Under the pieces are notes generated by a model. It did not search any database, was not told where the DNA came from, and saw nothing but the letters and a program-made list of their open reading frames with translations. 43,230 nt of DNA. Source: Microcaldota archaeon. Lineage in GTDB: Archaea; Micrarchaeota; Micrarchaeia; Micrarchaeales; Micrarchaeaceae. Within the stretch, counting starts at the first letter, position 1; every line of letters starts with the position of its first letter. Where the stretch lies: assembly GCA_030037495.1 (NCBI GenBank), contig JASHRG010000003.1:1-43230 (forward strand), in the 5' to 3' direction. Below are positions 7,139-33,557 of this stretch, in pieces. A program made the position numbers and the translations under genes.

Positions 7139-7190
7139 ACCCTCTCTCCCTTTCCCCAGGGCCCTGGAGTGGGTTGGGGTTAGGGCTTAA
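7139..7190 (+). repeat. GC-rich intergenic element, copy 8
   Basis: CCAGGGCCCTGG forms a perfect 12-bp palindrome (7155-7166), followed by GGGTTGGGGTTAGGGCTTAA, the clearest example of the right-hand block. The tail points to the VapB-like gene at 7252, which has its own TATA sequence further down. Confidence 0.65.
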
Positions 7191-7851: not shown

Positions 7852-7927
7852 CGCCACTCCCCCAGGCCTAGGATGGGGTTGGGAGTTAGGGATTAGGCTT
7901 TATAACTTGAGCTTCGTAGCTTAGGTT
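7852..7927 (+). repeat. GC-rich intergenic element, copy 9 (with promoter-like tail)
   Basis: CCCCCAGGCCTAGGATGGGG is followed by TTGGGAGTTAGGG, then GCTTTATAACTT with its TATA centre about 26 nt before the ATG at 7928, and TAGCTTAGGTT abutting that ATG. Confidence 0.65.
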
Positions 7928-9117: not shown

Positions 9118-9143
9118 TACGTTTTTTAATACTTATCGTAGTC

Positions 9144-9222
9144 CTCTCCCACCCCCCACCCAAACCCCCTGGTTTGGGTGTCTATGGAGCTTATACTATG
9201 TCCGTAAGCTTATAGGATTAGG
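9144..9222 (+). repeat. GC-rich intergenic element, copy 11
   Basis: It contains the exact hairpin core ACCCAAACCCCCTGGTTTGG (from 9158), then a diverged tail AAGCTTATAGGATTAGGCTA that reaches the stop codon of the minus-strand gene at 9223. Confidence 0.65.
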
Positions 9223-10398: not shown

Positions 10399-10519
10399 AG
10401 CCCCTCTCCTCAGGCTCCTTAGGCAGCCCCTTCCCACTCCCCCACCCAAACCCCCTGGTTTGGACGTCCTGCGGGCTCGGAGGGGTTGGGGTTAAGGCTT
10501 GGAACTTAACTTAAGAATG
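10399..10519 (+). repeat. GC-rich intergenic element, copy 12 (full length)
   Basis: AGCCCCTCTCC pairs with GGAGGGGTT, with the hairpin core ACCCAAACCCCCTGGTTTGG (10444-10463) inside, then GGGGTTAAGGCTTGGAACTTAAC as the tail. Although the tail is in plus orientation, it abuts the 3' end of a minus-strand gene. Confidence 0.7.
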
Positions 10520-25003: not shown

Positions 25004-26203
25004 TCAGAGATTGACGTCAATATTGAGCTGCTCCTTGAGTTCACGGTACCTGTTCCTGATTGTAACTTCAGTTACTCCCGCAACATCTGCAACCTCCTTC
25101 TGGGTCCTGCGCTCACCTGCAAGTGCACCCGCAATGTAGACTGCTGCTGCACTAACCCCTGTTGGGCTCCTTCCAGACACAAGGCCTTTCTTCATTGCGT
25201 CCTTCAGAAGCTCAATGGATTTCTCCTGGGCCTCTCCAGAAAGCTTTAGCGCGTTTATGTACCTTGGAACATAGCTTATAGGATCCGTCAACGGGATCTT
25301 TAGGCCGAGCTCGTGCGATATTACACGATAAGCTCTTCCTATTTCCTTCTTTGGAAGCCCTGATATGCTTGAAATCTCATCAAGAGTCCTTGGCATTCCT
25401 GCTGCTCTGCAAGCAGCGTAGATCACCGCCTGGACAACTGTTTCAATCGGCCTTCCCCTTATAAGGTTGTTCTGCACGCACTTCCTGTAAAGAAGCGCAG
25501 CGCTCTCCCTTATGTTGTCAGGCAGGCCAAGATAGCTTGATACCCTGTTCAGTTCAGGAAGCGCAATCAGGTAGTTCCTTTCGCTTGAAGAGGCTATGCT
25601 TGCACGCTTGTGCCACTTCCTCATTCTGTATAATTGGGCCTGCCTCTTTGATGGTATCCTTACTCCTCTTATGTCCTTGTTGTACAGGTCTATTTCAGTG
25701 ACAAGGCCTCTGTTTGGCTTTGTGTACTTGATTGGGGCTCCTGTTCTTGCCCTGCTGTTTCTCTGGTCAGTGTCAAAAGCCCTCCATTCAGGACCTGTAT
25801 CGGTAACATTCTCTTCAATTACAAGGCCGCAGTTGTTGCAGACAAGTTCCCCCCTTTCATTGTCGAACATTAGATCGGTGGAGCTGCAGCTGGGGCATTT
25901 GCTTATCCTTTCATGGGTCTTTGCCATGTTGCCCTCACTAGATGAGGGCGCATTCATAAGCGCGCCTACAGGTGCGGGAAGATCCATTCCCTGCGGCATC
26001 ATTTCATTCTCTGAAGCAAGCATGCTCCTTGGCCTTCCCCTTCCTCTCTTTAGAGGTGATTCAATACTCAATTTGTTGTCCTTTACTATGATCTTCTTTA
26101 CCGTTGCAGAAGGAGTCATCTTCATCTTTGGCCTCTCAGCTGTCTTTCTTGGCTTGGCTGGCCTTGCCTTGCCTGTTGTTTTTCTTGTTTTAGACTTTGC
26201 CAT
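25004..26203 (-). CDS. tfb: Transcription initiation factor TFB with N-terminal AT-hook extension
   Basis: The product is 399 aa. The zinc ribbon (C103/C106, C122/C125), B-finger region (TDTGPEWRAFDTDQRNSRARTG) and two cyclin repeats (LPDNIRESAALLYRKCVQ... and LSGEAQEKSIELLKDAMKK...) are complete. TFB recruits RNA polymerase to TBP-bound promoters. Unusually, about 100 basic residues precede the ribbon, including RGRGRPR (53-59), an AT-hook-like motif. The long start is supported by a GGTGAT ribosome-binding site 5 nt upstream; an internal Met at 93 is the alternative. Confidence 0.95.
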   Translation of the reverse strand: MAKSKTRKTTGKARPAKPRKTAERPKMKMTPSATVKKIIVKDNKLSIESPLKRGRGRPRSMLASENEMMPQGMDLPAPVGALMNAPSSSEGNMAKTHERISKCPSCSSTDLMFDNERGELVCNNCGLVIEENVTDTGPEWRAFDTDQRNSRARTGAPIKYTKPNRGLVTEIDLYNKDIRGVRIPSKRQAQLYRMRKWHKRASIASSSERNYLIALPELNRVSSYLGLPDNIRESAALLYRKCVQNNLIRGRPIETVVQAVIYAACRAAGMPRTLDEISSISGLPKKEIGRAYRVISHELGLKIPLTDPISYVPRYINALKLSGEAQEKSIELLKDAMKKGLVSGRSPTGVSAAAVYIAGALAGERRTQKEVADVAGVTEVTIRNRYRELKEQLNIDVNL

Positions 26204-26371: not shown

Positions 26372-26427
26372 CTGGGCATGTGACCGCGCATGGCGCAGCC
26401 CAGGCCCTAGAGGGGAGCTTTGCCTGG
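26372..26427 (+). ncRNA. Possible small structured RNA (two hairpins)
   Basis: CTGGGC (26372) pairs with GCCCAG (26398-26403), and CCAGGC (26400) with GCCTGG (26422-26427), which also encloses CCCT/AGGG. The two stems share CCAG, so they may be alternative. A plus-strand TATA-like TTTAAATA (26349-26356) is about 25 nt upstream. Part of hairpin 2 faintly recalls the SRP helix-8 pattern but lacks its loop. Weak candidate. Confidence 0.25.
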
Positions 26428-26479
26428 ATACTTTACAAAAAGTTAAAACAGAATTAATATTTTGTCATTTTTCGGTGAG

Positions 26480-26489
26480 TTTATATATA
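26480..26489 (+). promoter_or_regulatory. TATA box of candidate ncRNA
   Basis: TTTATATATA stands 25-27 nt before the first base of the folded region at 26510-26512. A short inverted repeat CACTA-CATTA-TAGTG (26498-26512) overlaps the predicted start site. Confidence 0.5.
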
Positions 26490-26509
26490 CGCGTTTCCAC
26501 TACATTATA

Positions 26510-26600
26510 GTGATGTGGATCGTGGCAGTTAAAATCTAATTTTCACTACCACCCTAAACCCACCCAAGGAGCATGGTTCGCCATGCTCCACCCACATCCT
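26510..26600 (+). ncRNA. Candidate structured non-coding RNA with own promoter
   Basis: About 90 nt fold into a closed three-way structure. The outer stem is GATGTGG (26512-26518) with CCACATC (26592-26598). Arm 1 is GTGG-AGT-AAAAT/ATTTT-ACT-CCAC, three helices stacked with two single mismatches. Arm 2 is a perfect 9-bp GGAGCATGG/CCATGCTCC stem closed by a UUCG tetraloop. The 5' end of the outer stem falls where the upstream TATA box predicts transcription to start. No open reading frame fits. It is not a tRNA (no T loop) and I cannot match it to a known family. Confidence 0.55.
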
Positions 26601-26740
26601 AATAAGTTTATAGCCAAAACACGGTGTTTATCGCATAGCACCGAACCCAGAAGAAAGGTATATAAACCTGAGCAGAAAAGTGTGGGATGTAAGGTGTAGA
26701 TGCATGGACGATGGAGGAAACTAATTAGATTAGGGTAATT

Positions 26741-28144
26741 CTAAAGTTCTGAATAAGGTATTCTCCTTTTTTCTGTTTCAATTTTCTTCTCCCTAGCTAG
26801 GTTTTCATATTGCATAGAGTAGCTGTTGTCGAATCTCCTATAGCAGAAATCACCAACAATTAAGCCTGTTATTACGGTGTTACTAAATTCTACTCCTTTC
26901 AATTTACTCTTAAGCTCATCGGTTTTCTTATTTAGATTCCCACCTCTAAACATAGGCATTATAAGTAGGACTCCGTCAGGATCACGTACATTGAAAATTG
27001 CCGTATACCTGTTACTCACGAGGTTATCATCGGCAATAACATCGAACCTCAAGTTGTCTCTGCTTGCTTGAAATGCAGGAATATAGAGTCTGTTAAACTG
27101 TATTATTCCGACGTAAGAGACGGGTAGATTAGTCTGGCATATTGTTACTCTTTTCAATAAGCCTGATTCTAGCATTTTATAGTAGGAGTACCTTGCGCTA
27201 CCTTGGGGCAGCCCATTATCTTTGTCTATATCTTGATAGCTCTTCTTGCCATTAATATTCAAATCTTTCAGTACCTTGTAGTCTCTTTCGAATATAGAGT
27301 ATAACGGTGGTTTTTTAAGATCAGGGCGCCTATGCCAGATTCGATCAGCTAGCATTTCAAAGAACTGGGGGCGCGTAGGTATGAAGCCGTATGTTGCCAG
27401 TACGGCCTTTACATACCATAGGCACTGATAATTTTGTAGTGCCCTATTTCTTAGCACATCCAATCCTGATTCCCCGGCTTTTATCTCCATGTCTGCTACA
27501 ACATATAGCAAGACATCGTACTCGCCTTTTACGAGAGCACAAAGTTGCACCATTGGTAGTGGTTCAAAAGCAGCTCTGAGCTCTTCAGTTGTAGGAACTT
27601 TATCGAGGAATTTTATTAGGACAACGTACTCTTGGAAACCTATTTTGTATGGGTCGAACTCGGCAGTGTATTTAAGACCATACTTTATTTCTAGCGCTTT
27701 AACTTTCCTTGTTGCTGCTTGCGCGCTTATGCCAAGAAGTTTGCCTATAGACTTCATTCTGGCCCTGCCGTTCATGCTCAGTATAGTTAGTATCTTTGCT
27801 TCTTCCTCAGTAACCGTAGGCGCCACAGTTTCTGAACCACTCTTTATTGGCCTTTCGTTTTGTTTTTGAGGCTCTAGCAGCATTCCATGGCTCTTAACTA
27901 TGGCCATCGCTTTTTCGAGCTCCTTTTCCTCTTTTGTTGCACTCTTCTTGATGAAAGCGCCTTGCTCAGTTATTCTACCAAAATATTCTGATGTGCGAGA
28001 TTTATTGCCTGCCTTTCCCTGATCAGCATACGACACCTTATACAGATAAAACCTACCTCCAATCTTACTTAGGTATATGTTTCCATACTCTGCCTTGAGT
28101 TCTGTGTATTTTTCTGCAACAAGCTTTGGGATACTTGCTTTCAT
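26741..28144 (-). CDS. Large tandem Lrp/AsnC-like regulator
   Basis: The product is 467 aa. Residues of about 110-170 form an Lrp-type HTH (EEEAKILTILSMNGRARMKSIGKLLGISAQAATRKVKALE), followed by a ligand-binding-like RAM segment (YVVLIKFLDKVPTTEEL...LCALVKGEYDVLLYVV). A second HTH-like block (DYKVLKDLNINGKKSYQDIDKDNGLPQGSARYSYYKMLESGLL) and another alpha/beta segment follow, so it looks like two Lrp-type units in one chain. The N-terminal 95 residues are of unknown type. Base composition is more AT-rich than the neighbours. Its promoter (minus strand, ATACTTAAATAG) faces the small-protein operon. Confidence 0.75.
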   Translation of the reverse strand: MKASIPKLVAEKYTELKAEYGNIYLSKIGGRFYLYKVSYADQGKAGNKSRTSEYFGRITEQGAFIKKSATKEEKELEKAMAIVKSHGMLLEPQKQNERPIKSGSETVAPTVTEEEAKILTILSMNGRARMKSIGKLLGISAQAATRKVKALEIKYGLKYTAEFDPYKIGFQEYVVLIKFLDKVPTTEELRAAFEPLPMVQLCALVKGEYDVLLYVVADMEIKAGESGLDVLRNRALQNYQCLWYVKAVLATYGFIPTRPQFFEMLADRIWHRRPDLKKPPLYSIFERDYKVLKDLNINGKKSYQDIDKDNGLPQGSARYSYYKMLESGLLKRVTICQTNLPVSYVGIIQFNRLYIPAFQASRDNLRFDVIADDNLVSNRYTAIFNVRDPDGVLLIMPMFRGGNLNKKTDELKSKLKGVEFSNTVITGLIVGDFCYRRFDNSYSMQYENLAREKKIETEKRRIPYSEL

Positions 28145-28325
28145 AATAATTTTATTACTATTTAAGTATTTAAAGCTTCTCCTTTATATGAGAGACATAA
28201 TGAGTAAATACAACTTTTTATTATTGAAATCTCCTTATATTTATGTATAGATGGGCATTTTGCATTATTAATAAGACAAACTATATATACTTTGGGCTCC
28301 ATAATATAATCAAGTGGGGATTGCC

Positions 28326-28499
28326 ATGGGTATGAGGAAGAATAGTGCTTCTAATCCAAATCGCGCTATTGCTAGATATCTCAACCATCCTTGGCGAAAG
28401 CCAATTCACCCAACTCTGAGATACAAGGTCTACGTGGCTTTCTTCTTTGTGCCCATGACAACTCCACAAACTATTCCTAGTGCTAAGCATAATGTTTGA
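28326..28499 (+). CDS. Small basic protein, first gene of a three-gene operon
   Basis: The product is 57 aa from ATG 28326 (a GTG at 28314 would add four residues). MGMRKNSASNPNRAIARYLNHPWRKPIHP is basic, followed by a short hydrophobic YVAFFFVPM. A TATA box (ACTATATATAC, about 28,280-28,292) and a GTGGGGA ribosome-binding site precede it. It is of the size of small ribosomal proteins but I cannot match it to one. It is followed after 5 nt by the next small gene. Confidence 0.5.
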   Translation: MGMRKNSASNPNRAIARYLNHPWRKPIHPTLRYKVYVAFFFVPMTTPQTIPSAKHNV

Positions 28500-28504
28500 T
28501 TTTT

Positions 28505-28633
28505 ATGATACCCATTGAAAAATATGGACCAAGAGAGCAGGACTTCCTTGAAAAGCATGAAGACTTTCTGTTCAAGCTTGATATCATTGCGCTTGTGAGC
28601 ATAATAGTGCTCGCTATAGCTATGATATTTTAA
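28505..28633 (+). CDS. 42-aa single-pass membrane protein
   Basis: ATG 28505 to TAA 28633. An acidic-polar N-terminus (MIPIEKYGPREQDFLEKHED) is followed by one membrane helix (DIIALVSIIVLAIAMIF) at the very C-terminus, a tail-anchored layout such as that of Sec61-beta-type proteins, though without matching sequence. The stop overlaps the start of the next gene by one base (TAATG), so the two are translationally coupled. Confidence 0.55.
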   Translation: MIPIEKYGPREQDFLEKHEDFLFKLDIIALVSIIVLAIAMIF

Positions 28634-28914
28634 TGCCTGGAAAACCTGGCGGGAGCATGGTGCGCAAACGGGGAATATTGCACAGATTCTATCTGATCGA
28701 GCCAAGGGAGAATGCCAGCGCGGATGAACTTGCCGAGAAGCTCATCTCTTTGAAGCCTGTTGAGGAGGTATTCCTCACTGATGGCGACTATGGGTTCCTT
28801 GTGAAGACAAGGTTCTTCGAAGGCAGTGAACCTGATGACATAACAAAGTACATTTCAAGGAACGTGAGCAAGAAGTTCGGAAAGATCGTGAGCTACTTCC
28901 AGTACAGGAAATAA
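28633..28914 (+). CDS. Stand-alone Lrp/AsnC-type ligand-binding (RAM-like) domain protein
   Basis: The product is 93 aa. HRFYLIEPRENASADELAEKLISLKPVEEVFLTDGDYGFLVKTRFF...DDITKYISRNVSKKFGKIVSYFQYRK has the beta-alpha-beta-beta-alpha-beta order and the V.EV...GDYGFLVK centre of Lrp/AsnC C-terminal domains, without an HTH. Such domains bind amino acids or tune full-length Lrp proteins by hetero-oligomerisation. A full Lrp-like protein is encoded divergently 180 bp upstream of the operon, a possible partner. Confidence 0.75.
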   Translation: MPGKPGGSMVRKRGILHRFYLIEPRENASADELAEKLISLKPVEEVFLTDGDYGFLVKTRFFEGSEPDDITKYISRNVSKKFGKIVSYFQYRK

Positions 28915-33321: not shown

Positions 33322-33557
33322 GCAGTGGCAGGTGAGCAGCCAACCGAAAGGAGGAAGCTCCTCCCATATCCAATGGCACAAGTGGCTTAGGGCCTTATTC
33401 GGAACAGAAACGATACCAGGGCAATGCATAAGCGATGACGAGACGAGCGCATTGTGATGGATGAAACGCGCCGATGGTGTGCTGGTATGCAAGTCGATTA
33501 TCGACGCTCAGTCTAATGCTGCATAAAACAAAAGGAGGGCTACGGCCTGCCGCTACC
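33322..33557 (+). ncRNA. rnpB: RNase P RNA, archaeal
   Basis: Helix P1 forms from AGTGGCAGG (33324-33332) with CCTGCCGCT (33546-33554), nine pairs with one wobble. Helix P4 forms from AGC-CCTCC (33356-33364, with T33359 as the universally conserved bulged U) and GGAGGGCT (33534-33541). Conserved blocks GAGGAAGCTCC, AACAGAAACGATACC, GATGAAACG and the ACAAAAGGAGGGCTAC 3' block are all in order. At about 235 nt it is short for an archaeal RNase P RNA. A T-rich stretch (TTATTTTT) follows as a terminator. Confidence 0.88.

Follow-up and report, generated by a model that had tools for sequence, protein, structure and literature searches.

A Putative Small RNA Gene Beside tfb in a Microcaldota Archaeon and its Candidate Family in Micrarchaeota

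The Locus

The DNA analyzed here, called the window, is the first 43,230 nucleotides of contig JASHRG010000003.1 from a Microcaldota archaeon. Between tfb and the gene for a large Lrp/AsnC-like regulator, labeled LrpW here, lies a short sequence with a TATA box and a strong predicted fold. The features of the locus, with the basis of each in parentheses, are as follows.

25004..26203, − strand: tfb, the divergent neighbor in this genome (G000) and in G003, G010, G011 and G013 (Pfam TFIIB 1.1e-40, neighborhoods)
26480..26489, + strand: TATA box (TTTATATATA) of the putative RNA gene (sequence)
26512..26518, + strand: 5′ arm of the outer stem, GATGTGG, predicted 5′ end of the RNA (fold)
26522..26552, + strand: 5′ compound hairpin H1, GTGG...CCAC, with inner AAAAT-CTA-ATTTT (fold)
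26533..26541, + strand: AATCTAATT, tip of H1 and its best-conserved part; T/GCTAATTCT in relatives (alignments)
26553..26567, + strand: C-tract linker CCTAAACCCACCCAA, unpaired and free of G, counterpart of the invariant class-1 core (fold, alignments)
26568..26589, + strand: GC-rich 3′ hairpin H2, 9 bp, TTCG loop (fold; covariation in 41 homologs)
26592..26598, + strand: 3′ arm of the outer stem, CCACATC, end of the conserved RNA (fold)
26741..28144, − strand: LrpW, convergent neighbor (Pfam HTH_AsnC-type, tblastn)

The Pfam HTH_AsnC-type match of LrpW falls just below the curated cut-off. On its divergent side, positions 28145-28914 hold small ORFs and a gene for a 93-aa protein with no Pfam match; an equivalent layout exists in Ca. 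Micrarchaeum A_DKE upstream of three Lrp-like genes.

As RNA, positions 26510-26600 have a predicted folding energy of −33.5 kcal/mol, compared to −15.9 ± 2.67 for dinucleotide shuffles (z = −6.59), and none of 200 shuffles folded as well. The folds of other intergenic stretches, at 26375-26445, 26610-26680 and 26680-26780, are not unusual. The initial annotation of this DNA had described a 7-bp outer stem, a compound hairpin and a 9-bp UUCG hairpin, and all are present where it placed them: the outer stem pairs 26512-26518 with 26592-26598, and the arms of H2 (26568-26576 and 26581-26589) enclose the TTCG loop at 26577-26580. The proposed promoter was likewise confirmed in the sequence. From the first base of the TATA box to the first paired base is 32 nt, the spacing expected of an archaeal start, and the predicted start thus coincides with that base. 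Nor does an open reading frame occupy the structure, as had been stated; the sole overlapping ORF on the plus strand (47 aa) stops at 26510. On the 3′ side, at 26658-26669, the sequence GGTATATAAACC is TATA-like on both strands and is a possible promoter toward tfb; transcription from it would give a long leader that runs through the RNA in antisense.

A Family of Related Loci

To our knowledge, almost no non-coding RNAs other than housekeeping ones have been described in DPANN archaea. A DNA search of 60 relatives gave partial matches in three congeneric genomes, and loci brought in with tfb were found to share an architecture of TATA box, hairpin, C-rich linker, GC hairpin and T-run. A covariance model from three sequences (R1) matched weaker relatives in other genomes, and a model from three of these (R2) matched 62 of the 85 genomes of the window's family (E ≤ 0.3, best 2.4e-21), mostly with one copy each. 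A third model (R3), trained on 12 members from all groups, had matches with E ≤ 0.05 in 89 of the order's 163 genomes, the sister family included; nearly all genomes compared are metagenome assemblies, in which absences may reflect incompleteness. The R3 match to the window copy has an E value of 4.7e-14, this copy being among the 12, and the independent support therefore comes from the detection by R1 and R2 of relatives beyond their training sets.

The general layout is a TATA box, a 5′ hairpin, a G-poor unpaired linker built on CC or CCC tracts, a GC-rich hairpin and often an oligo-T run. Three groups are distinguished by position: class 1 near tbp, class 2 near tfb, which includes the window copy, and class 3 near Lrp-like genes; outside class 1, assignment is based on weak to moderate scores combined with neighborhood. 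The genome of the window has a second locus, of class 1, on the minus strand of contig C42 (6633-6706; R2 E = 1.4e-12). R2 also detects class-2 loci weakly, in G011 (1.2e-4), G013 (0.034) and G010 (0.08), which supports the relationship of the two classes. Given the C42 match and the spread over 62 of 85 genomes, the window RNA is a diverged class-2 paralog of the class-1 RNA. By covariance-model homology it is connected to loci in other genera and in the sister family, where a core, ACAGACCCAACATACCCAATCCCAA, is near-identical in several genomes. As judged from the sequences, the window locus is a putative small non-coding RNA gene of ~90 nt, a diverged paralog in a new Micrarchaeota RNA family, and this RNA family spans at least two families of that phylum. 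That the family is real we hold to be nearly certain.

None of the 4227 families of Rfam 15 matched the window RNA or the class-1, class-2 and class-3 loci at gathering score, the window RNA having been searched on both strands, and a permissive search gave matches at chance level only. A literature search, subscription papers aside, found no report of such an RNA. The annotators' view that the RNA fits no known family is right with respect to Rfam. Their term "orphan" has to be given up, as the RNA has homologs, which make up a hitherto unrecorded Micrarchaeota family, and a paralog within its own genome.

The sequence CTATTCTCATCCACC, 15 nt long, is identical in all 50 class-1 loci examined, with variable flanks on both sides, indels included. 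It is predicted to be mostly unpaired (0.62-0.98), and H2 comes next. When 301 genomes of the phylum were searched for CCTATTCTCATCCACC as a pattern, it was present in 62 of the 85 genomes of the window's family and in none of the sister family; among the 216 genomes outside the family there were only seven with one-mismatch matches, near the control level. The core was not found in viral contigs. A scan of the window's own genome for C-rich linkers followed by hairpins revealed no larger repertoire, with six loci compared to nine in the reversed sequence. The identity of 15 nt in 50 loci, together with presence in most genomes of one family, marks the RNA as functionally important. Cultured Ca. 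Micrarchaeum A_DKE carries a class-1 copy (NZ_CP060530.1, 289,442-289,516, + strand), which makes the RNA accessible to experiment.

The window linker CCTAAACCCACCCAA aligns with class-1 CTATTCTCATCCACCC. The window RNA has CCCTAAACCCACCC at the position of the invariant core, for which reason it was assigned to class 2, and its linker is more diverged. The inner stem of H1 varies among AAAAT/ATTTT, AGAAT/ATTTT and GAAT/ATTC across G000, G010 and G011. Directly after the position of CCACATC there is a run of six or seven T residues in G007, G010 and G011; the window copy lacks an oligo-T tail. The outer stem pair GATGTGG/CCACATC recurs in G007, G009 and G003 and is absent from other members. 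Confined to a few close relatives, it is not a defining feature of the family, which is instead conserved in its unpaired C-rich linker and its 3′ hairpin.

Compensatory changes were found in homologs. In the class-1 alignment, 10 pairs and 23 cells had changed on both sides, compared to 3.7 and 5.8, respectively, in shuffles. Pairing was retained in 97% of cells in H2 and 86% in inner H1. Outer H1, at 53%, is unsupported as a pairing in class 1. For H2, the covarying element shared by the family, 41 distinct members gave 95.9% paired cells and 29 double-sided changes, compared to 6.6 ± 2.0 in shuffles, a number reached in none of 500; this alignment was fitted to the model and is biased toward structure, and slid controls were far lower (17-60% paired). 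The TATA-like element of class 1 is constant in position. TATA-like motifs upstream of 50 class-1 homologs peak 80-50 nt before the core, with 82 in the three 10-nt bins at the peak and 0-5 in the other bins; the window copy has its TATA box at 26480-26489.

Several other features of the window and its relatives were recorded. Three intergenic C-rich stretches on the plus strand (1059-1099, 9139-9179 and 10425-10465) are each followed by an inverted repeat, ACCCAAACC-CCCT-GGTTTGGGT; on the opposite strand these copies form G-rich leaders of neighboring genes, and one scores weakly with R3 (E 0.34). Intergenic motifs of the GGGGTTGGGGTTAGGG type are repeated at 1702-1732, 7156-7186, 7862-7892 and 10468-10498, within an island, the first 16 kb, in which most genes have no A_DKE orthologs and some appear PIN- or RelE-like by eye. 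In two relatives, G065 and G020 (L222, L223, L226), 16S matches either extend over ~2.0 kb or are interrupted and include an additional piece, which suggests introns in their 16S rRNA genes.

Neighboring Genes

The position of the RNA beside regulator genes, to which the initial annotation had drawn attention, proved a useful lead, since its relatives recur beside genes for TBP, TFB and Lrp-like regulators (gene names in these neighborhoods were assigned from similarity, partly by inspection). In 37 of 50 class-1 loci, the RNA is preceded on the same strand by a TBP homolog, and in 35 of these the distance from gene end to core is 94-241 nt. Archaeal TBPs usually have two repeats. The one beside class 1 is a single-repeat protein of 110 aa, in which Pfam PF00352 matches as one stretch. 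Its gene in the genome of the window is at C42:6807-7136 (−), and a second half-size relative is found at C2:10943-11224. The association is not universal; in genus g5, A_DKE included, class 1 is present without an adjoining tbp.

Class 2 comprises the window copy and those of six congeneric genomes. In five of the seven, tfb is divergent and 300-350 nt away; in the other two, G007 and G009, it is on the same contig at a distance of ~2.8 kb. LrpW is convergent with the RNA in the window, and a gene for a PH-domain protein directly follows the RNA in G013. From this arrangement, LrpW seems to have been inserted between the window RNA and the PH-domain gene, which leaves tfb as the conserved neighbor of the window copy.

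Class-3 loci are second copies retrieved with R3 regardless of their neighbors. In 13 of 20, a homolog of LrpW or the related Lrp8 starts divergently ~200-700 nt upstream, and the same is true of four loci of this type detected earlier; in contrast, an Lrp homolog of any kind lies within 1.5 kb in only one of 30 class-1 loci. Two copies from the sister family (G052 and G054) are located upstream of rpl3.

Possible Mechanisms

The invariance of the core in 50 of 50 loci amid variable flanks places the function in the linker. The mechanism we favor, tentatively and at somewhat less than an even chance, is that of a protein-bound regulatory RNA tied to transcription. The RNA would be transcribed from its own TATA promoter, and its hairpins would display and protect the linker. 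The latter may be bound by a conserved protein, either one that recognizes C tracts or a component of the transcription machinery, and the resulting RNP would regulate transcription or the neighboring regulator genes. A long, invariant, unpaired sequence with repeated C tracts and no pairing partner is best accommodated as a protein-binding site. No partner emerged from the searches made, in which accessibility and short seeds were ignored: against the own genome the best duplexes of the class-1 core were no better than those of shuffled cores, no complementarity beyond shuffles was seen with the 16S/23S rRNA of relatives or, beyond shuffled controls, with the mRNAs of neighbors, and none of the 452 ortholog pairs formed with A_DKE had a conserved target in its start regions. 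A strong-looking complement 700 nt from the class-1 gene falls within the coding sequence of eL21 and was put down to chance.

These results also bear on a close rival, a trans-acting antisense sRNA. Its C-rich linker would be the seed for pairing with mRNAs at G-rich or Shine-Dalgarno regions and would thereby block their translation, in the manner of C-rich sRNAs of Staphylococcus and of the single-stranded linker of Methanosarcina mazei sRNA162, described below. This rival has perhaps a third of our confidence. The architecture of hairpin, unpaired C-rich linker and terminator-like hairpin fits it, and ribosome-binding sites are GGTGA-like in this organism, so that pairing with C-rich seeds is possible. 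Two core matches of 12-13 nt lie over the start codons of SucD-like and eS31-like genes (named by eye; not significant), and the core has three complements as 13-mers, compared to about 0.6 expected by our own estimate. Against it are the equivalence of real and shuffled cores in the own genome, the lack of a conserved target among the 452 pairs, and the window linker, which gave no clear excess with gene starts of its own genome, the tenth-best duplex being marginal (p about 0.06). At 15 nt or more, the invariant stretch exceeds the usual seed length, and sRNA162 pairs through its most variable part, whereas the linker here is the least variable.

Other explanations dispense with a separate RNA. 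Class 1 follows tbp on the same strand at ~100-150 nt and might be a cis-acting structure in the 3′ UTR or leader of adjoining genes, which we consider improbable: the class-1 TATA box is at a constant distance, the downstream genes are variable and frequently convergent, and the orientation of neighbors depends on the class, in that the RNA follows tbp, diverges from tfb and LrpW, and precedes rpl3. It is more improbable still that the element acts as DNA, as a protein-binding inverted repeat or recombination site, even though class-1 H2 is a near-invariant inverted repeat, usually with one copy per genome. The loop of H2 varies from 3 to 8 nt, with additional closing pairs where it is longer, inner H1 covaries too, the conserved linker is non-palindromic, and the TATA spacing is fixed. 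A chance fold with no function is scarcely credible in view of the z score of −6.6, the homologs and the covariation.

To return to the protein-bound RNA, its recurrent siting beside genes for TBP, TFB and Lrp-like regulators leads to a concrete hypothesis linking it to archaeal transcription control. In a specific form, which we consider speculative and rather unlikely, the single-copy, near-invariant RNA and its paralogs would form RNPs with the initiation apparatus (single-repeat TBP, TFB and the Lrp-like regulators) and regulate it. Gene neighborhoods can occur without functional linkage, which limits the model.

Comparison with Known Systems

The RNA resembles SRP RNA, RNase P RNA and tRNA in being a conserved structured RNA gene of the same genomes. 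It is none of these: an SRP RNA-like match lies elsewhere in the genome, at C2:27904-28161, the archaeal RNase P RNA is at 33324-33554 (+) of the window, just over the gathering score, and a tRNA search of the window found none. An identity as a C/D box or H/ACA guide RNA was also rejected, as the boxes are not conserved in the alignments, by inspection, and the Rfam models are silent.

RNAs of the 6S and 7SK type act on the transcription apparatus. The likeness to them is confined to the proposed mode of action, that of a single-copy conserved RNA working through protein; no structural or sequence resemblance was found, nor any Rfam match. If RNPs with the initiation apparatus do form, the Micrarchaeota RNA would be the functional equivalent, in archaea, of 6S or 7SK RNA.

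Among archaeal sRNAs, sRNA162 and sRNA171 of M. mazei are similar in being intergenic, in having stem-loops around a single-stranded linker and in the existence of a paralogous copy, and the gene for sRNA162 adjoins that of a transcription regulator (PMC3510493). However, sRNA162 is 191 nt long, compared to ~90 nt here, and its 39-nt linker, which pairs with a ribosome-binding site, is its most variable part (PMC3510493), whereas the linker of the Micrarchaeota RNA is the most conserved and no target was found for it; sequence homology was not seen. In the C-rich sRNAs of Firmicutes, of the IsrR, FsrA and RoxS/RsaE type, C-rich regions pair with G-rich Shine-Dalgarno sites, and they share with the present RNA unpaired C-rich regions beside hairpins and a terminator-like 3′ hairpin (PMC9410917). 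They differ in having bacterial promoters and terminators and show no homology, and Shine-Dalgarno pairing is unsupported here. By analogy, the Micrarchaeota RNA would work most like sRNA162 or the staphylococcal C-rich sRNAs, but the tests made showed homology to neither.
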